From positions 186,001 to 250,000 of the forward strand of contig NZ_JACYFR010000005.1 of NCBI RefSeq assembly GCF_014837175.1: 64,000 bases of DNA, read 5' to 3'. The translations under genes were made by a program, and so were the position numbers. The notes beneath the pieces are model-generated. The model was given only the letters and a program-made list of their open reading frames with translations. It made no database searches and was not told the DNA's origin. This stretch comes from Cellulomonas sp. JH27-2. GTDB taxonomy: Bacteria; Actinomycetota; Actinomycetes; Actinomycetales; Cellulomonadaceae. Each line of letters starts with the position of its first letter. Position 1 is the stretch's first letter. Of the stretch, positions 15,108-24,120 are shown one piece after another.

Positions 15108-15824
15108 GTGGTCCTCAGCCTGCGCGGCGTCACGCGCGTGCACGGCAGCGGCCCGACGGCGGTCCGCGCGCTGGCCGGCGTCGACCTCGACGTCCGGCTC
15201 GGCGAGCTGGTGGCCGTGATGGGCTCGTCGGGCTCCGGCAAGTCCACGCTACTCAACATCGCGGGCGGCCTCGACGGCCCCACGGACGGGGCCGTGACCC
15301 TGGCGGGCGACGAGCTGCACGCGCTCGACCTCAAGGCCCGCGCCCGGCTGCGGCGCCGCAGCGTCGGCTACGTCTTCCAGGACTTCAACCTCATCCCCGC
15401 CCTGACGGCAGCCGAGAACGCCGCGCTGCCCCGCGAGCTCGACGGCATCTCCGGGCGCACCGCCCGCCGCGAGGCCCGCGCGGCGCTGCGCGAGGTTGGT
15501 GTCGAGGCGCTCGCGGACCGGTTCCCCGACGAGATGTCCGGCGGCCAGCAGCAGCGCGTCGCGATCGCCCGCGCCCTCGTCGGGCCGCGCCGCCTGGTCC
15601 TGGCCGACGAACCCACCGGCGCGCTCGACTCCGCGACCGGCGAGGACATCATGCGCGTGCTGCGTGCGCGCATCGACGCCGGCGCCGCCGGCCTGCTGGT
15701 CACCCACGAGCCGCGGTTCGCCGCGTGGGCCGACCGCACGATCTTCCTGCGGGACGGGGTCGTCGTCGACGGCACCGGCACCCGCGGGGGACCCGAGTCC
15801 CTGCTCGCGGGGACCCGTCGGTGA
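15108..15824 (+). CDS. ABC transporter ATP-binding protein, MacB/LolD type
   Basis: A 238-residue ATPase with Walker A GSSGSGKS near residue 38, signature MSGGQQQR, Walker B LVLADEPTGALD and the H-loop VTHEPR. DEPTGALD is typical of the MacB/LolD/FtsE class, which pairs with FtsX-like permeases for mechanotransmission or export. The first usable start in this frame is GTG 15108, 18 bases after padR; the ATG overlapping the padR stop at 15086 is in another frame. Its stop overlaps the permease start as GTGA. Confidence 0.92.
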   Translation: MVLSLRGVTRVHGSGPTAVRALAGVDLDVRLGELVAVMGSSGSGKSTLLNIAGGLDGPTDGAVTLAGDELHALDLKARARLRRRSVGYVFQDFNLIPALTAAENAALPRELDGISGRTARREARAALREVGVEALADRFPDEMSGGQQQRVAIARALVGPRRLVLADEPTGALDSATGEDIMRVLRARIDAGAAGLLVTHEPRFAAWADRTIFLRDGVVVDGTGTRGGPESLLAGTRR

Positions 15825-18499
15825 GGCACTGGTGGCGCACCCTGCGCCCCGCCGCCCGCATCGCCCGTCGCGACGCCGTCCGGAGCAAGGGGCGCACGGC
15901 GTTGGTGGCGGCGATGATCGGCCTGCCGGTGCTGGGGGGCGTCGGGGGAGCGGTGCTGGCGCAGTCCAGCATGGAGTCGCCGGAGCACGCGGCGCGCGCC
16001 GCACTCGGAGGCGCGCAGGCCGTGATCGACGACTACGGGACGGGACCGGTCCGGCAGGACCCGGTGGGACAGCGGGTCGACGTCCTGTCGCAGTGGACGC
16101 AGAGGCCCAGCCCGACCGAGCAGGGCCGCGTGATCGCCGACGTGGTGGGGGGCACGGTCGTGCGAACGGACCAGCGCGTCGTGGTCCTCGGCGCGCACGG
16201 ACGCGAGCTCGTGCACGCGACCACGATCCGCTCCGCGGACAGAGCCTCGCCTGTGCTGGCGGCGGGCCAGGTGGTACGTGGATCCGCGCCGAGCGGCACC
16301 GGGCAGATCCTGCTCGCCGTCGACGAGGCGGACGAGCTCGGCGTCGACGTGGGTGACCGGGTCACCGCGCGAGCCGAGAGCGGCCCGGCATCGACCCTGA
16401 CCGTGACCGGGATCGGGAACCACGGCTCGCTCGCCGTCGGATTCCTGGCCGACGGTTTCGCCAACGGCACCACGTGGTCGGTGGTGGGCTCGACGCCGGT
16501 CACCTGGGCGGAGGTCGAGGCACTGAACGAGCACGGGCTGCGGGTCGTGAGCCGTGCCGTGCTCGACCACCCGCCGAGCTTCGGGATCTCGGTAGCAGCG
16601 CCTCGGCTCGATGGGGCCGTGATCGGACTGTTCGGTGCGGCGGCGGTGATGGGTGTGCTGGAGGCGGTGCTGATCGTCGGCCCGGCGTTCGCCGTGGGGG
16701 CGCGCCGGGTGGAGCGGCTGCTCGCGCTCGTCGCGGCCTGCGGTGGTGACCAGGGGACGATGCGGTCCGTCGTGGTGCTGACGGGCCTGATCACCGGCCT
16801 GGCCGCGTCGCTGGTCGGAGCCGTCGTCGGGCTCGTCGGCGCGGTGCTGGTTCGAGGCGTTCTCGTAGCGCGAGGCTCGACGGCGTTCCCTGAGCTGCGC
16901 GTGCCGTGGCTGCTGTGCGTGGCATTCGTGGTGGTGGGGGCGGTCGTCGCGACGGCCGCGTCCTGGCTGCCTGCGCGTCGGGCCACGCGGATGGACGTGG
17001 TGGCGGCGCTCGGAGGTCGGCGCGTCGAGGCGAGGCCTCACCCCAAGGTTCCGCTGGTGGGGATCGGGCTGGTGGTCGGCGGGCTCGTGGCCGCGGTCGT
17101 GGGCGCGCTCCAGACGACGCCTGCACTGCTCGTTGCAGGCCCGGTCGCGATCCAGGTGGGCGTCGTCGTGGCGGCCGGAGGGCTGGTCACGCTCGTCGGG
17201 CGGCTCGCGCCGCGCGCGGGCGTGGCCGCGAGGATCGCGATGCGCGACGCCGCGCGGCAGCGGGGCAGGACGGCACCGGCGATCGCAGCGGTCATCGCCG
17301 CCGTCGCGGGCATCGTGGCGGGTGCCGTCTACGCGCAGTCCAGCGGCGCCGCGGAGCAGGCGATCTACCGTCCGAGCGGAGCCGTCGGCACGGTGATGGT
17401 CGCGTACTCGCCCACTGACCCGTTCGGCAACCCGCTCCCTGACTCGCCGCAGCCTGACTCGACCGCGGTCGAGCGCGCGTTGCGCGGCGCCCTGCCGGTC
17501 GGTTCGTCTGCGATCCTGCGGACCGCCGTGCCCGCCGATGCTGACGGCGCGTTTCTCGTGCCCGCACCCCGGCCGGCGCTCGGATGCCCGGCCATGGAGA
17601 AGGTCCTCGTCGACCCGCAGCAAGCGGGCGGTCGCTGCTACCTGTACGGGGACCGCATGCCGTCGACCGTGAGCTTCCAGGCGCCCGGGCAGACGTACCT
17701 GCCGACGGCGATCGTCGACGACGGGAGTGCTGCCGAGGCGCTCGAAGGGGGCGACGTGGCCCTGGGCGAGGCCGTCGCGAAGGGGACGGTGCTCGTGACC
17801 CGACCCGACGCGATCTGGCCCGACGGAACCGTCCACCTGTACGCGGTTGCGGAGCGTGATGTCGTCGGCCTGCAGCCGACGGCCGAGCTGGTCGCCCCCG
17901 CTCGCCTGGTCGCTGGGCTCGGGCAGTTCGAGGTCCTCGTCAACGAGGCCGACGCGACGGCGCTGGGGATGTCGGCCGTCGAGGCCGGGGTGGTCGCGTC
18001 GACCACGAGGATGCCGACGGACGACGAGCAGAAGGCCGCCGAGACGGCTCTCGCGCGTCAGGCCGTCGTCGGGGTCGAGCCCGGGTACCACGGCTCCACG
18101 CCGGTCGTGCTGCTGATCCTCGTCGCCGGTGCCGTCGTGGTGGGCCTCGGCGCGACGGCGCTCGCGATGGCGCTGGCTGCCGCGGAGTTCCGGCCCGACC
18201 TGGCGACGCTCGGCGCGATCGGTGCCGGCCCGCGCACCCGACGTCGCGTCGCTGCGGCGCAGGCCGGCGTCGTCGTGGTCGTCGGCGTGGGGCTCGGTGC
18301 CGTCACCGGGCTGTTGCTCGGCGGCGTCCTGGTGCTGGCGCTGCACCAGACGGGCAGCCGCCTCGTGCCGGTGCTGCATCTCGTCGTGCCGTGGCCGGCG
18401 CTTGCCGCGATCGTCGTCGGCGTGCCGGTGCTGGCGATGGGCGGCGCGTACGTGCTCACGCGGTCGCGGCTCCCGATGGCGCGTCGAGTGGTGGGGTGA
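15821..18499 (+). CDS. FtsX-like ABC transporter permease
   Basis: An 892-residue permease with duplicated FtsX domains. A first transmembrane helix (TALVAAMIGLPVLGGVGGAV) is near residue 22, a long extracytoplasmic part follows, then a three-helix block around 265-385, another helix and ectodomain, and a final three-helix block. Such permeases with a MacB-type ATPase move lipids, peptides or drugs, or act as bacitracin-type sensors; the substrate cannot be told. The GTG start overlaps the ATPase stop. PadR in the same operon suggests induction by a toxic compound. Confidence 0.9.
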   Translation: MRHWWRTLRPAARIARRDAVRSKGRTALVAAMIGLPVLGGVGGAVLAQSSMESPEHAARAALGGAQAVIDDYGTGPVRQDPVGQRVDVLSQWTQRPSPTEQGRVIADVVGGTVVRTDQRVVVLGAHGRELVHATTIRSADRASPVLAAGQVVRGSAPSGTGQILLAVDEADELGVDVGDRVTARAESGPASTLTVTGIGNHGSLAVGFLADGFANGTTWSVVGSTPVTWAEVEALNEHGLRVVSRAVLDHPPSFGISVAAPRLDGAVIGLFGAAAVMGVLEAVLIVGPAFAVGARRVERLLALVAACGGDQGTMRSVVVLTGLITGLAASLVGAVVGLVGAVLVRGVLVARGSTAFPELRVPWLLCVAFVVVGAVVATAASWLPARRATRMDVVAALGGRRVEARPHPKVPLVGIGLVVGGLVAAVVGALQTTPALLVAGPVAIQVGVVVAAGGLVTLVGRLAPRAGVAARIAMRDAARQRGRTAPAIAAVIAAVAGIVAGAVYAQSSGAAEQAIYRPSGAVGTVMVAYSPTDPFGNPLPDSPQPDSTAVERALRGALPVGSSAILRTAVPADADGAFLVPAPRPALGCPAMEKVLVDPQQAGGRCYLYGDRMPSTVSFQAPGQTYLPTAIVDDGSAAEALEGGDVALGEAVAKGTVLVTRPDAIWPDGTVHLYAVAERDVVGLQPTAELVAPARLVAGLGQFEVLVNEADATALGMSAVEAGVVASTTRMPTDDEQKAAETALARQAVVGVEPGYHGSTPVVLLILVAGAVVVGLGATALAMALAAAEFRPDLATLGAIGAGPRTRRRVAAAQAGVVVVVGVGLGAVTGLLLGGVLVLALHQTGSRLVPVLHLVVPWPALAAIVVGVPVLAMGGAYVLTRSRLPMARRVVG

Positions 18500-18513
18500 T
18501 ATTGGCGGGCGAC

Positions 18514-18541
18514 CCATCCGGTCGTCGGACGGCGTCGAACC
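18514..18541 (+). promoter_or_regulatory. SigK-type promoter upstream of sigK
   Basis: CCATCC (18514-18519), a 16-base spacer and CGAACC (18536-18541). This equals the two promoters in the fasciclin/dipZ gap and resembles the mycobacterial SigK consensus CCATCC-N16/17-CCGAAT as I recall it. It implies that sigK-rskA is autoregulated. Confidence 0.75.
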
Positions 18542-18664
18542 TTGGTCGACCTGATGTTTCCGCCGACCGAGCGAAGGATTTCCGTGCTGCTGCTGCTCGC
18601 CCCCATCGGCGCGCCCCGCACGTCGCGCGGGCGAGGTGCCCGCCCGTGCGGCACACTGGCGCGC

Positions 18665-19231
18665 GTGGTGCAGGCTTCCGAATCGATGAGCGACGCTCCT
18701 GAGCTGCTTGCCGCCGTCGCGGCGGGTGACCAGGACGCGTTCGCGCGCCTGTACGACCAGCTCGAGCGGCCGGTGTTCGGCACCTGCGTCGGGGTTCTCC
18801 GCGATCCCGACCACGCCGCGGAGGTCGCGCAGGAGGTCTGGGTCGAGGTCTGGCGCACCGCGGAACGGTTCGACGCCGCGCGTGGCTCGGCCCGTACCTG
18901 GGTGGTCACGCTGGCCCATCGTCGGGCCGTGGACCGCGTGCGGTCGGTGCAGGCGCAGCGCGACCGGGACCAGCGCGTGCTCGACGAGAGCGGCGAGCGG
19001 CCGTTCGACGTCGTCGCCGACGAGGTCGAGACCATGCTCGAGCAGGTCCGCGTGCGCGAGTGCCTGCAGACGCTCACCGAGACCCAGCACCGCGCCGTGA
19101 CGCTCGCCTACTACGGCGGCAAGACGTACCGGGAGGTGGCCGAGGCGCTCGGTGCTGCGCTGCCGACCGTGAAGTCGCGCATCCGCGACGGGTTGCTCCG
19201 CCTCAAGGACTGCTTGGGGGTGGTGGCGTGA
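18665..19231 (+). CDS. sigK: ECF RNA polymerase sigma factor SigK
   Basis: A 188-residue ECF sigma factor. Region 2 spans about residues 25-95 (AFARLYDQLERPVFGTCVGVLRDPDHAAEVAQEVW, then AHRRAVDRVR) and region 4 about 130-185 (TETQHRAVTLAYYGGKTYREVAEALG and TVKSRIRDGL). Cys133 and Cys183 match by position the redox-sensitive disulfide pair described for M. tuberculosis SigK. I use GTG 18665, with CACACT (18652-18657) seven bases upstream as a possible leaderless promoter; ATG 18686 is the alternative and would drop seven residues. The next gene, rskA, overlaps by four bases. The neighbours are known SigK targets. Confidence 0.88.
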   Translation: MVQASESMSDAPELLAAVAAGDQDAFARLYDQLERPVFGTCVGVLRDPDHAAEVAQEVWVEVWRTAERFDAARGSARTWVVTLAHRRAVDRVRSVQAQRDRDQRVLDESGERPFDVVADEVETMLEQVRVRECLQTLTETQHRAVTLAYYGGKTYREVAEALGAALPTVKSRIRDGLLRLKDCLGVVA

Positions 19232-20061
19232 GCGAGAACGACGAGACCCGCGCCCTCCTCGGCGCCTATGCCCTCGACGCGGTCGACGACCTCGAGCGTC
19301 GCGCGGTCGAGCGTCTGGTCGCGTCCGACGACGAGGCGGCTGACGAGCTCCGCCAGCTGCAGGCCGTCGCGGCCCGGCTGGGCGAGTCCGTGCGCGCCGA
19401 GCCCCCCGCCGCCCTGCGGGCGTCCGTGCTCAGCGCGATCGCCGCGGAGGCGTCGGGCACTGCCCGCACGCCGCGACACGCGGCCCAGACGAGCGCCGCC
19501 TCGACGGGTACCGCCCCGACGAGCGCCGGCCCGACGGGCGCCGACCGAACCGACGCAGAACCGGTCGGCGCGAAAGCCCCGGCCGTGCGGTCCGCGACGA
19601 CGCCGGCCCGCCCGCGCAGCCCGCAGCGGTGGTGGTCGCTCGCCGCGGCCGTCGTCGTCGGCGCCGCGGTCCCGAGCGCGCTCGCGGTGCAGCAGCACCA
19701 GCGCGCCGAGCACGCGACCACCCAGCAGCAGGCGCTCGCCGACGTGCTGCGCGACCCGTCCGCGGTCCTCGCGCACGGCGACGTGCAGGGCGGTGGCACA
19801 GCCACGGCCGTGCTCACCGACGACGACGCGCTCTTCAGCGCCACCGGCTTGCCGTCGCTGAGCGACGGCAAGGTGTACCAGCTGTGGGTGGTGAGCAAGG
19901 ACGCGGCGGCCTCGGCCGGTGTGCTCAGCGCCGACGGCGGCAGCGTGCGGCAGCTCGCCGGCGACTTCTCGTCGGGCGACGCCCTGGCGATGACCGTCGA
20001 GCCGCAGGGCGGCTCGCAGCAGCCGACGACGACGCCCCTGGTGATCCTCAGCGCCAGCTGA
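19228..20061 (+). CDS. rskA: Anti-sigma-K factor RskA-like
   Basis: A 277-residue single-pass membrane protein. The N-terminal cytoplasmic helical domain (LLGAYALDAVDDLERRAVERLV) lacks the HxxxCxxC zinc motif, as in RskA. A Thr/Ala/Gly/Pro-rich linker of about 50 residues precedes the membrane helix WWSLAAAVVVGAAVPSALAV near residue 138. The C-terminal RskA domain (LPSLSDGKVYQLWVVSKDAAASAGVL) is outside. It should hold SigK inactive until proteolysis or a redox cue releases it. The GTG start overlaps the sigK stop. Confidence 0.88.
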   Translation: MSENDETRALLGAYALDAVDDLERRAVERLVASDDEAADELRQLQAVAARLGESVRAEPPAALRASVLSAIAAEASGTARTPRHAAQTSAASTGTAPTSAGPTGADRTDAEPVGAKAPAVRSATTPARPRSPQRWWSLAAAVVVGAAVPSALAVQQHQRAEHATTQQQALADVLRDPSAVLAHGDVQGGGTATAVLTDDDALFSATGLPSLSDGKVYQLWVVSKDAAASAGVLSADGGSVRQLAGDFSSGDALAMTVEPQGGSQQPTTTPLVILSAS

Positions 20062-20118
20062 CCCGCTCGTGGTCGGCGCGGCGTCCCCGGGCGGCCGCGG
20101 TGCTGTCGACGCCGGCCG

Positions 20119-20177
20119 TCGAGATCGACATCTCTCACGCCATCGGCGCCCGGAGCCGTGAACGACGTCGATCTCGA
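20119..20177. repeat. Inverted repeat downstream of rskA
   Basis: TCGAGATCGAC (20119-20129) and GTCGATCTCGA (20167-20177) form an 11-base stem with a 37-base loop in the gap after rskA. It may be a weak terminator or chance; nothing else is visible at 20062-20219. Confidence 0.35.
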
Positions 20178-20219
20178 TGCTCGCTGTCGACCCGCGGGCG
20201 CGACAACCTGCGGGCATGG

Positions 20220-20259
20220 CAAGACCCCCGCACCCGGTGGGATGGGTGCGGGGGTCTTG
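20220..20259. terminator. Bidirectional terminator between rskA and the fasciclin gene
   Basis: CAAGACCCCCGCACCC (20220-20235) pairs perfectly with GGGTGCGGGGGTCTTG (20244-20259): a 16-base stem with an 8-base loop, 9 bases past the fasciclin stop. There is no U-tract, consistent with the I-shaped terminators common in actinobacteria. Confidence 0.88.
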
Positions 20260-20268
20260 GACCGGTGG

Positions 20269-20955
20269 TCACATCGAGGGCATCAGCACCGAGTCGATGA
20301 GGTAGACGGTCGCGTTGGCGGTGTGGACGCCGCCGCAGATGACCTTGGCGCCGTCGACCATGATGTCGTCGCCGGAGCCGGTGACCTTCACCGTGCCACC
20401 CTCGACGGTCTTGTGGTCGCCGTCGATCTTGTCGGGCGAGATCTGGCCGGGCACCACGTGGTAGGTGAGGATCTTGGTCAGGGTGTCGCTGTCGGTCTTG
20501 AGGCCGTCGATGGTCGCGGCGTCGATCTTCTTGAACGCGTCGTCGACCGGTGCGAACACCGTGAACTCGCCGCCGTTCAGCGTGTCGACGAGGTTGACGT
20601 CCGGGTTCAGCTTGCCGGAGACCGCGGCCGTCAGCGTGGTGAGCAGCGGGTTGTTGGACGCTGCCACGGCCACCGGGTCGGTGGACATGCCCTGCACGGA
20701 GCCGGCGCCGTCGGGCACCTGCGCGGCGTAGGCGGCGCAGCCGCTGCCGACGAGGTCCGCGGCCGGGTCCATCGTGCCCATGCTGTCGTCGGACGCCATG
20801 GGCGACGACGAGTCCATGGGGGTCTCCATCGCGGCGGGCGACGAGGCGCCGGCGTCGCTCGAGCTGTCGCTGTCCGAGCTGCAGGCCGTCAGCGCGATGC
20901 CGGTGACCCCGGCGAGCAGGACGGCGGCGATGCGGGTGCGAGCTGTGGTACGCAT
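20269..20955 (-). CDS. Fasciclin (FAS1) domain lipoprotein, MPT83-like
   Basis: A 228-residue surface lipoprotein: signal with lipobox LTAC near residue 25, a Ser/Asp/Met-rich tether, and one FAS1 domain ([58 protein letters not shown]). It resembles MPT83/MPT70 of mycobacteria, the main SigK-dependent antigens. The ATG at 20955 follows a GAGGGAGA ribosome site. A SigK-type promoter (21016-21043, minus strand) lies about 60 bases upstream. The role is probably cell-surface adhesion or envelope; the exact function is unknown. Confidence 0.92.
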
Positions 20956-21015
20956 GGTGGGTCTCCCTCGATCTGTCGTGACCCCGGGGTGGTCCCGGCG
21001 TCCACTGTCGAGCGA

Positions 21016-21043
21016 GGTTCGGCGCCCGCGGCGGGGTGGATGG
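21016..21043 (-). promoter_or_regulatory. SigK-type promoter for the fasciclin gene
   Basis: On the minus strand CCATCC (21043-21038), a 16-base spacer and CGAACC (21021-21016), identical in elements and spacing to the sigK promoter. The predicted start site is about 50 bases before the ATG. Confidence 0.78.
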
Positions 21044-21080
21044 GTCGGATCGGCGAGCAGTTTTTCGACCCTTCGTCGGC

Positions 21081-21108
21081 CCATCCGAGGCGCCCGCGGT
21101 GGCGAACT
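21081..21108 (+). promoter_or_regulatory. SigK-type promoter for dipZ
   Basis: CCATCC (21081-21086), a 16-base spacer and CGAACT (21103-21108). Only six bases separate the -10 from the dipZ ATG at 21115, so SigK-driven dipZ mRNA should be leaderless. It is divergent from the fasciclin promoter in the same 159-base gap. Confidence 0.78.
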
Positions 21109-21114
21109 CGTGCC

Positions 21115-23016
21115 ATGGACCTGCTCACGCTCGCGCTCATCGGCCTCGTCGGAGGACTGATCACGGGGATCTCCCCGTGCATCCTTCCCGTGCTGCCCGT
21201 CGTCTTCTTCGCGGGAGGCGTGGAGAACGCGCGCTCCTCACGCTCACCGATCAAGGTCGCGACCACCCGCGGTGCCGGCGCGGCCGGCGCCGTGGGAGCG
21301 ATGGCCCAGCCGTCGTTCCTCGCCGGGGGAGCCGGGGGAGCCGGGGTGCGGGCGGGTGACCCGACGACCGGCCCGACGACCGGCGGAGTCGCGCTCGCCG
21401 AACGGCCCACGCCGGCCGCGCCCACGCGGCGTGAGTCCGCGCGTCCCTACCTCGTCATCGCCGGCCTCGTCACGAGCTTCACGCTGGTGACGCTCGTCGG
21501 GACCCTGGTGCTCAACCTGTTGGGCCTGCCGCAGGACCTGCTGCGATGGGCCGGCATCGCGGTGCTGGCGATCCTGGGCATCGGCCTGCTGGTGCCCCGG
21601 TTCGAGGAGATCATCGAGCGGCCGTTCCAGCGACTGACCCCCAAGCGAGCGCCGGGCCAGGGGCGCGGCGGGTTCGTGCTCGGCCTGGGCCTGGGGGCCG
21701 TGTACGTGCCGTGCGCCGGGCCGGTGCTCGCGGCCATCACGGTCGCCGGGGCGACGGGAACCATCGGTCTGGGGACCGTGGTCCTCACCGTCGCCTTCGC
21801 GCTCGGCGCGGCGATCCCGCTGCTGATCCTCGCGCTCGCGGGCCGCCGTGTCGCGGAGCGCATCGCGGCCTTCCGCTCCCACCAGGCGACGGTCCGCAAG
21901 GTGGGCGGCGCCCTGATGCTGGCGCTGGCGCTCGCGCTGTCGTTCAACGTCACCGACTCCATCCAGCGCGCGCTGCCCGGCTACACGGACGAGCTGCAGA
22001 CGAAGGTGGCGGCAAGCAAGACCGTGCAGGAGCAGCTGAACCTCGGTGGCCTGACGACCGCCGAGAACGAGGGCCTGTCGCGCTGCCACAACAACTCGGC
22101 CACTCTCGAGGACTGCGGCCCCGCCCCCGAGATCCGGGGCATCGACACCTGGCTGAACACGCCCGACGGTGCGGCCCTGACGCTCGCCGACCTCAAGGGC
22201 AAGGTCGTCCTGCTCGACTTCTGGGCCTACTCCTGCATCAACTGCCAGCGCTCGGTCCCGCACGTCACGGCCTGGGACAAGGCGTACGCCGACGACGGCC
22301 TCGTGGTGATCGGCGTCCACACGCCCGAGTACGCGTTCGAGCGGGAGACCCGCAACGTCGTCGACGGTGCGAAGCGGCTCGGCATCACCTACCCCGTCGC
22401 GCAGGACAACTCCTACGCCACCTGGACCGCGTACCGGAACCGCTACTGGCCGGCGCACTACCTCATCGACGCCACCGGCCAGGTGCGGCAGGTGTCGCAG
22501 GGCGAGGGCGGCTACGCGCAGACCGAGAAGCTGATCCGCGAGCTGCTGGAGGAAGCGAACCCCTCGGTGAATCTGCCCGGCGAGACGACCGTGGGCGACA
22601 CGACCCCGCAGGGTGACATCACGCCGGAGACGTTCCTGTCCGTCAGCAAGCACCGCAACGTCGACGGCGACTACAAGGAGGGCGACTTCACGGCGACGCT
22701 GCCGCAGGACCAGAAGCCGGACACCGTCGCGTTCGGCGGGACGTGGACCACGGACTACCAGGGTGCCACCGCCCGCGAGGACGCCGTGCTGCGGATGGAC
22801 TACCACGCGGCTGTCGTCGAGTCGGTCCTGGGCGGGTCGGGTTCGGTGACCGTGGTCCGCCGGGACGCGGACGGCGCCGAGACCGGCCGCGACACGTTCG
22901 ACGTCACCGGGTCGCCGCGGTCCTACCCGCTGGTCCGGGCCGATGCGGTCGGCGAGGGCAGCGTCGAGCTCGAGGTCTCCCCTGGAGTGCAGGCGTTCTC
23001 CTTCACGTTCGGCTGA
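21115..23016 (+). CDS. dipZ: DipZ: CcdA membrane domain fused to extracytoplasmic thioredoxin domain
   Basis: A 633-residue DipZ-like thiol-disulfide protein. The N-terminal half is a CcdA/DsbD transporter ([15 protein letters not shown] near residue 17, [16 protein letters not shown] near 200) with a low-complexity Gly/Ala insert between helices. The C-terminal half has an AhpC/TSA-thioredoxin fold with redox motif CINC in [15 protein letters not shown] near residue 370, then a beta-rich DipZ C-terminal domain. It should carry reducing equivalents out through the membrane. In M. tuberculosis dipZ lies beside mpt70/mpt83 and under SigK, as here. Confidence 0.93.
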
Positions 23017-23030
23017 CCGTCTCCCGAGCT

Positions 23031-23074
23031 CGACTCCCGCCGCGGCGACAGGCCGAGGACTGCGGCGGGAGTCG
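23031..23074. terminator. Bidirectional terminator between dipZ and the DUF4349 gene
   Basis: CGACTCCCGCCGC (23031-23043) pairs perfectly with GCGGCGGGAGTCG (23062-23074), loop 18 bases, in the 66-base gap between two converging genes. Confidence 0.82.
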
Positions 23075-23082
23075 GGTCCGCG

Positions 23083-24120
23083 TCAGTCCTGGACGTCGTC
23101 GGCGGACGCGGGCGGCGCCGCGGGCGGCCCGGTCGGCTGCGCGGGGGCCTGCGGGGCGGAGGTCGGCAGCACCCCGGGCAGCGCGTACGCCGGCACGGGG
23201 CCCTGCGGACCACGGGTGGGGCGCTCCGGTCGGCGCTTCCGGCGCCAGCGGACGAACGCGACCACGCCGGCCGCGACGGCTCCCGCGAGCACGAGCCACG
23301 GGAGCAGCACGCCGAGCACGATCACCGCGCCCTTGATGACGTCGACGAGCGAGCTCCAGCCCACCGCGAGGGCGTCGAAGAAGTTGCTCGGCCCCTCGGT
23401 CTGGACCGGCGGCGCGACGTCCGGGCCGTAGATGTCGATGGTCAGCGTGGACAGCGACACCTGGTCCGCGAGGCGGGCGCGCTCGGACTGCAGCTCCTCG
23501 AGGCTGGACTGCCGCTCGGTCAGCGCGCTCTCCGCATCGATGACGTCCTTGCTGGTGGTGGCCTTGGCGAGCAGGTCCTCCATCCGGGTCACGGAGATCT
23601 GCAGCGCGTGGATGCGGGCGTCGAGGTCCTGCGCGGCGCCCGTCACGTCGGTCGCCTTCAGGTCCACCGAGTCGACCGTGCCGAGGTCCTTGAGGGCCTT
23701 GATGGTCGCGTCCACCTTGTCCGCCGGGACCCGGACGACGAGGTTCGCGCTGCCGCCGGACTCGTCCGTGGTCGCCTGCTCGGACCGGTCGTCGATCCGG
23801 CCGCCGGACCTCTCGACGAGCGTCACGACCGCCTGCGTCGACGCCGCGGCGTCCTTGACGCGCATCGACACCGTGCCGGTCTGGACGACCTGGCGCTCCT
23901 GCGTCGCGGACTCCGCGGCCGCCGAGTCGGCCGAGCCGTCGCCGCCTTCGTCGGCGAAGCCCTGTGCCGCGGACCGGGGAACGGAGTCGGACGCCGACCC
24001 CGCGTCGTCGGAGCTCGCCGAGCAGCCGGCCAGCAGGCCGAGCGTCAGCGCCCCGGTGGCGAGCAGAACGGTGATCCCGGGTGTGCGCCGGGTGCTGCGT
24101 CGTGGCGTCGTGGTCGTCAT
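23083..24120 (-). CDS. DUF4349 membrane-anchored lipoprotein
   Basis: A 345-residue DUF4349 protein. The signal ends in lipobox LAGC near residue 33; an acidic tether follows, then the domain (RQVVQTGTVSMRVKDAAASTQAVVTLVERSGGRIDDRS) and a coiled-coil stretch around residues 170-225 (ALTERQSSLEELQSERARLADQVS). A hydrophobic helix near 270 and a basic, Pro/Ala-rich cytoplasmic tail end it. The function is unknown. A TAGCGT -10 (24128-24133, minus strand) lies seven bases before the ATG, so it is probably leaderless. Confidence 0.88.
   Translation of the reverse strand: MTTTTPRRSTRRTPGITVLLATGALTLGLLAGCSASSDDAGSASDSVPRSAAQGFADEGGDGSADSAAAESATQERQVVQTGTVSMRVKDAAASTQAVVTLVERSGGRIDDRSEQATTDESGGSANLVVRVPADKVDATIKALKDLGTVDSVDLKATDVTGAAQDLDARIHALQISVTRMEDLLAKATTSKDVIDAESALTERQSSLEELQSERARLADQVSLSTLTIDIYGPDVAPPVQTEGPSNFFDALAVGWSSLVDVIKGAVIVLGVLLPWLVLAGAVAAGVVAFVRWRRKRRPERPTRGPQGPVPAYALPGVLPTSAPQAPAQPTGPPAAPPASADDVQD

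Follow-up and report, generated by a model that had tools for sequence, protein, structure and literature searches.

A Cellulomonas SigK/RskA locus with predicted CCATCC-N16-CGAAY promoters that also precede unlinked genes

Results

A locus of Cellulomonas sp. JH27-2, in which genes for the extracytoplasmic function (ECF) sigma factor SigK, the membrane anti-sigma factor RskA, an MPT83/MPT70-type fasciclin (FAS1) lipoprotein and DipZ lie in one place, is very probably part of a SigK/RskA regulon that uses CCATCC-N16-CGAAY promoters (Y, C or T) and includes unlinked targets. The DNA analyzed, referred to here as the window, is a stretch of 64,000 nucleotides (contig NZ_JACYFR010000005.1, positions 186,001 to 250,000). 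The original prediction had described a complete SigK regulon in one locus, with three promoter elements of equal spacing. All four genes were identified by family or structure–sequence searches, and the three elements were recovered as exact matches, each with its 16-base spacer. The claim of completeness had to be given up, as elements also precede unlinked genes of the same genome, which holds at least four further plausible targets.

Exact copies of CCATCC-N16-CGAAC occupy 18514-18540 (plus strand), 21043-21017 (minus strand) and 21081-21107 (plus strand), followed by C, C and T, respectively. The copies ahead of the fasciclin gene and of dipZ are divergent, their −35 parts being separated by 37 bases. 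When spacers of 15 to 18 bases were allowed, CCATCC-N15-18-CGAAY matched three times in the 64 kb against 0.20 expected, a number reached by none of 100 shuffles. Over the whole genome (3.73 Mb), the same range gave 17 matches versus 10 for a reversed control, which taken by itself says little; at a fixed spacer of 16, the counts were 9 and 1.

We then compared 81 Cellulomonas genomes, divided into 40 with a SigK match at E ≤ 1e-30 (SigK+) and 41 without (SigK−); two of the SigK+ genomes, G031 and G016 (G and L numbers label genomes and loci of the compared set), were counted on a weaker or partial match. In the G016 locus (L079), the partial SigK match is overlapped by an RskA match, and sigK may be broken. 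Spacer-16 elements numbered 160 in SigK+ and 54 in SigK− genomes (Mann-Whitney p = 7e-9, uncorrected for kinship), while a spacer-19 control showed no difference (53 versus 42; p = 0.27, likewise uncorrected). FAS1 was present in 22 of the 81 genomes, 21 of them SigK+.

Further afield, we inspected 32 relatives and 80 named actinobacterial sigK loci, the best 80 of 575. The exact element was present on the strand of sigK, at most 2.7 kb ahead of it, in 19 of the 32 relatives and 32 of the 80 named loci (4/26 in Streptomyces, 28/54 in others). Many of the relatives, though not every one, have it ahead of sigK, the fasciclin gene or dipZ: three loci (L051-L053) have none before sigK yet carry it upstream of the fasciclin gene or of dipZ (in L052, of the fasciclin gene alone), and three others (L055-L057) have sigK-rskA with neither an element nor a fasciclin gene or dipZ beside it. 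Spacer 16 accounted for 55 of 68 CCATCC-N14-18-CGAAY matches in the 80 named loci. Over 218 distinct spacer-16 sites, the favored form was CCATCCG-N9-CGGC(T/G)CCGAA(C/T), in which CCATCC and CGAAY were fixed by the search and only the other positions are informative, many loci having been chosen because they have the element.

A second regularity concerns translation starts. Among rows with an element of spacer 14 to 18 within 650 bases upstream, dipZ began exactly 7 bases past CGAAY in 22 of 22 (18 distinct genomes, four rows being second copies of counted genomes; L128/L188, from one genome, have spacer 17). A molybdopterin oxidoreductase gene found in several families began at this +7 position in 14 of 16 rows (8 ATG, 6 GTG; spacer 17 in L069 and L072), and so did two operons of Amycolatopsis in which flavin amine oxidase and DUF1365 genes precede sigK, there with GTG. 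The first in-frame start was at +7 in 0 of 48 fasciclin, 0 of 13 DUF4383 and 0 of 6 CHRD rows. Across the 218 distinct sites, ATG occurred 43 times at +7, whereas the remaining offsets between 0 and 30 had it 1.67 times on average; for GTG, the corresponding numbers were 15 and 3.53. Searching the 81 genomes for CCATCC-N16-CGAAY-N7-RTG (R, A or G) returned 42 sites and none for the reversed control; 40 lay in SigK+ genomes (34 ATG, 6 GTG) and two, both GTG, in SigK− genomes. Some of these codons are not the gene's own start, as at G024:C1:917245, where the fasciclin gene begins at +60. Since the start codon is fixed at +7 and a −10 element lies at a usual distance from its start site, mRNAs of +7 genes are predicted to begin at the start codon or one base before it, that is, to be leaderless.

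We surveyed 75 spacer-16 sites, comprising 69 from 23 SigK+ genomes and six of the window's genome outside the window. The 69 were drawn from the matches listed, excluding sigK-locus sites, G014:C12:66481 and G085, although two of them (L124 and L128) adjoin sigK; classes were assigned by family searches and BLAST and tallied by eye. Recurring target classes were found at 41 sites. The classes are a DUF4383 membrane protein (14 sites, among them L001 of the window's genome), a LuxR-type helix-turn-helix (HTH) protein (13 sites, ten with a close form, including L007 of the window's genome), a CHRD-type protein (six, including L006 of that genome), the molybdopterin oxidoreductase (three: L126, L131 and L133, none in the window's genome), fasciclin (three) and dipZ (two). 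In the window's genome, the element thus precedes genes for a small LuxR-type regulator and for DUF4383, CHRD and YcnI-like proteins, the first three of which also follow it in relatives.

The LuxR-type protein, a stand-alone HTH of about 90 residues, is likely a second-tier regulator. Close relatives (E ≤ 1e-20) occur in 12 of the 81 genomes, all SigK+, and 12 of 12 have the exact element with ATG at +7 (G000:C2:218455 (L007), L119, L134, L136, L152, L154, L158, L161, L165, L171, L342 and L345). Both SigK+ and SigK− genomes contain more distant stand-alone LuxR-type proteins; in the 18 such loci scanned (L352-L369), no element with fewer than three mismatches was detected within 200 bases. 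As a separate observation, a locus of Occultella aeris (L259:7592-9170) has a SigK element, a start codon at +7, a sortase gene and then a gene for a ferritin-like protein.

Features of the sigK locus are collected in Table 1.

Table 1 Genes, predicted promoters and inverted repeat of the sigK locus, in window coordinates.
Feature	Position	Strand	Remarks
Predicted SigK promoter of sigK-rskA, CCATCC-N16-CGAACC	18514..18541	+	Exact match
sigK, ECF sigma factor	18686..19231	+	ATG (MSDAPELL) taken as start; start not certain
rskA, membrane anti-sigma factor	19228..20061	+	PF10099 and NF052375 above cut-off
Perfect 16-bp inverted repeat, 8-bp loop	20220..20259		Between convergent ends of rskA and fasciclin gene
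MPT83/MPT70-type fasciclin lipoprotein gene	20269..20955	-	Lipobox LTAC (by eye), 41-residue linker with 5 Met, FAS1 domain
Predicted SigK promoter of fasciclin gene	21016..21043	-	Exact match; start codon 61 bases past CGAAC
Predicted SigK promoter of dipZ	21081..21108	+	Exact match; ATG 7 bases past CGAAC
dipZ	21115..23016	+	CcdA/DsbD-type membrane part (C22, C200), thioredoxin-like domain (C374-x-x-C377, CINC), C-terminal domain

The SigK assignment rests on a whole-protein match to NCBIfam NF007228 (261.1 bits, cut-off 226) and on M. tuberculosis SigK (4nqw) as the best Protein Data Bank match (E = 1e-46). The open frame extends upstream as far as 18542, hence the uncertain start. Cysteines 126 and 176, in ECL and DCL, align with cysteines of 4nqw in ECL and NCL; in M. 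tuberculosis SigK, the conserved cysteines 133 and 183 are described as important (PMC7509140). The adjoining rskA, on the same strand, has a GTG start overlapping the sigK stop (GTGA). Its product matches PF10099 in the C-terminal domain (84.8 bits, cut-off 29.4), with the N-terminal match to PF22618 below threshold (20.3 bits, cut-off 27); a stretch LLGAYALDAV resembles, by eye, the AS19-1 helix-1 consensus HTLAGAYALDAL given in PMC7406223. The fasciclin lipoprotein scored 97.8 bits with PF02469 (cut-off 22) and matched MPT70 (1nyo) at E = 9.7e-64 across 161 residues. DipZ exceeded the cut-offs of PF02683, PF00578 and PF17991 and matched M. tuberculosis DipZ at E = 1.5e-105 (5cyy), with 2hyx likewise at about 1e-105. 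The inverted repeat is likely a terminator. Nothing reached the Rfam gathering threshold over 17800-23800. Upstream (15108-18499) lie genes for an ABC ATPase and an FtsX-type permease, preceded by a small gene that by eye looks like a PadR-type regulator; downstream, a gene for a DUF4349 protein (23083-24120) is on the minus strand.

We also examined FAS1 loci that resemble those of mycobacteria. Genus g30 of family f22 shows FAS1-dipZ-FAS1 loci with no sigK in the stretch seen (L316 and L317), which is the M. tuberculosis arrangement, and from this we infer that g30 is Mycobacterium or a close relative. Six of its ten loci have a spacer-16 element ahead of a FAS1 gene (L316, L317, L322, L332, L335 and L338); L322 has two, the one in L335 is one base off and most end in CGAAT. 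Of the others, L339 has spacer 17, while L307, L313 and L314 have none; L316 holds an extra spacer-18 match. A looser pattern over all 40 FAS1 loci gave spacer 16 in 26 of 37 matches. The original prediction had compared its elements with a mycobacterial motif CCATCC-N16/17-CCGAAT. The idea that the −10 outside mycobacteria differs from the mycobacterial one was, therefore, abandoned: judged by these sites, the predicted promoters of mycobacteria-like loci and of Cellulomonas are the same form, with mostly equal spacing and a last base that tends to T in the former.

The segment between lipobox and FAS1 domain proved rich in methionine. Of 92 matches, 78 had a usable lipobox linker, eight duplicate loci being omitted; these linkers contain 239 Met in 3,002 residues (8.0%), compared to 2.1% in the domains. 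With 5 Met in 41 residues, the linker in the window lies below the highest counts, 9 in 49 and 9 in 51 (L308 and L246), and Met-free linkers occur in the mycobacteria-like L307, L314 and L335. Linkers of 53 other lipoproteins, a control set that includes several FAS1 or sigK-operon lipoproteins missed by the filter, average 1.34 Met per 40 residues versus 3.53 for 30 FAS1 linkers. The fasciclin linker of MPT83-type proteins, in the window (20955-20269) and in relatives, is also acidic. In eight loci (L059 (6553-7848), L061, L062, L064, L193, L195, L200 and L214), all relatives without FAS1 beside sigK, a 430-444-residue lipoprotein with two similar halves and Met in its linker is encoded between a SigK element and sigK; the three of these eight proteins that were searched have no Pfam match.

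Discussion

Several observations weigh against a SigK regulon with CCATCC-N16-CGAAY promoters. SigK− genomes still average 1.32 spacer-16 matches, and the p-values of the genus comparison are overstated, related genomes not being independent. In 13 of 32 relatives and 48 of 80 named loci, including 22 of 26 Streptomyces, the 2.7 kb ahead of sigK contain no exact element (in five of the element-less loci the upstream stretch is shorter than this), and dipZ of L052 lacks an exact element. A recurring target is missing at 34 of the 75 surveyed sites, which may be chance matches, and for two of the nine spacer-16 sites of the window's genome (L003 and L004) no target gene is convincing. CHRD only just passed its threshold (25.3 bits, cut-off 24.1), and the YcnI element is exact solely in the window's genome: three near relatives have a copy with one mismatch, and the other ten loci have no element.

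Could the three motifs be chance matches in GC-rich DNA? The modest excess in the whole genome with spacers of 15 to 18 (17 versus 10) leans that way, but the three matches where 0.20 are expected, the 9 versus 1 at fixed spacer, the position of the elements, their conservation in relatives, their co-occurrence with SigK and the 40 versus 2 distribution of the +7 form led us to reject chance as scarcely credible. Another explanation holds that the elements are real promoters of another ECF sigma factor, with sigK merely one more target. ECF promoters can resemble one another, a first look gave 41 candidates for SigK-like stretches in the genome, and an exact element is absent from some SigK loci. 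Against this, element number tracks SigK presence in the genus while the spacer control does not, almost all sites of the +7 form fall in SigK+ genomes, and the element precedes sigK itself in 19/32 and 32/80 loci; we consider this explanation improbable.

The original prediction also suggested that the locus could represent an ancestral, undivided form of the system; such an origin of the four-gene arrangement, with a later split in mycobacteria, is possible but doubtful. FAS1 adjoins dipZ both here and in the mycobacteria-like L316 and L317, Rhodococcus (L220 and L240) is among the groups in which FAS1 is linked to sigK, and linkage of the four genes is seen in Cellulomonas, Sanguibacter (L213), Isoptericola (L246) and genus g23 (L308), as well as, with a different order, in family f19 (L301, L304 and L311), with Streptomyces L234 and L252 also scoring as linked. 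To follow this linkage, we built a SigK tree of 132 rows by a quick method with midpoint root, excluding L079 (match too short) and L051, L053, L057 and L185 (genomes already present). Counted over loci with 5 kb on either side of sigK or a positive state, linkage changed 22 times for FAS1, nine for dipZ and 18 for the molybdopterin enzyme, on a tree in which 50 of 129 inner branches have support under 80. FAS1 and dipZ both lie within 7.5 kb of sigK in 23 of the 132 loci (FAS1 and molybdopterin oxidoreductase in 24), and 18 of these 23 fall in a single 39-row clade that includes the window. Linkage in several genera speaks for common ancestry of the arrangement; its lability, its confinement largely to one clade and a gene order that varies between families speak against it.

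Returning to a SigK regulon that extends beyond the locus, we find its closest counterpart in the M. tuberculosis complex, with a related SigK, FAS1 protein and DipZ (structure–sequence search), RskA (domain) and a promoter spacing mostly equal in mycobacteria-like loci. There, the sigK locus and mpb83-dipZ-mpb70 are apart, as the original prediction stated for M. tuberculosis and as reported for M. bovis, whose SigK genes are restricted to two loci (PMC10540498), whereas in Cellulomonas sigK, FAS1 and dipZ share one locus and dipZ has its own, predicted leaderless-type promoter. With extra predicted targets elsewhere, the Cellulomonas regulon appears wider than the two-locus one of M. bovis (PMC10540498); for M. 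tuberculosis, sigC is reported as an additional SigK target (PMC4821874). A linked mpt83-sigK-rskA cassette outside mycobacteria was already published by Veyrier in 2008, as described in PMC7509140. This cassette of Actinobacteria and Yersinia shares with our locus the linkage of FAS1 to sigK-rskA and a conserved SigK site, but in Cellulomonas FAS1 and rskA converge, and FAS1 forms a divergent pair with dipZ. The Brucella system BcrS/AbcS (PMC8315932) may serve as a working analogy to the SigK system, not as evidence of kinship; it is induced by hypochlorous acid, and the abstract mentions no fasciclin protein. Our analysis adds the wider predicted regulon and the +7 start-codon rule, with no claim of priority over the literature.

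By analogy to published work in mycobacteria and Yersinia, RskA in the membrane would hold SigK until a change in RskA or its cleavage lets SigK direct RNA polymerase to CCATCC-N16-CGAAY promoters. SigK would then raise its own operon and, from the two back-to-back promoters, the lipid-anchored MPT83-type fasciclin protein and DipZ, together with unlinked targets: the stand-alone LuxR-type HTH regulator, the DUF4383 membrane protein, the CHRD-type protein and perhaps the YcnI-like protein. The dipZ and LuxR-type genes would be read from leaderless mRNAs.

The most likely purpose of such a response would be repair or buffering of oxidized proteins outside the cytoplasm, and the Met-rich fasciclin linkers suggest a response to oxidation there; neither of two papers retrieved on fasciclin and MPT83 has the term 'methionine-rich'. 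We regard it as unlikely that SigK/RskA outside mycobacteria is a system against extracytoplasmic oxidation (reactive chlorine or oxygen, or copper), in which the Met-rich fasciclin tether would be oxidized sacrificially or bind copper, its repair would draw on electrons from DipZ and, in relatives, from a molybdopterin enzyme of the sulfite-oxidase type, and the leaderless LuxR-type regulator would extend the response. Counting against this proposal, the predicted targets of the window's genome do not include the molybdopterin enzyme, which in three relatives fell well short of the cut-offs of SorA (118.5 of 600), MsrP (53.9 of 207) and other sulfite dehydrogenases. Copper as a common theme was dropped as weakly supported, with one YcnI and one CopC site among 75 and a YcnI element that decays in relatives.

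The signal that activates SigK is described as unknown, macrophage contact being the sole inducing condition found (PMC7509140). In a soil actinobacterium, RskA fell under ultraviolet light and recovered afterwards (PMC8965627), a hint on the signal. If the oxidation proposal were true, it would offer a direct test for this long-sought signal. A broader Cellulomonas regulon with base-exact predicted start sites, a conserved downstream regulator and targets suggestive of thiol repair, and perhaps of methionine repair, would make the question testable without a pathogen, and the +7 rule provides a precise, checkable statement on a sigma factor that may couple promoter position to leaderless translation.

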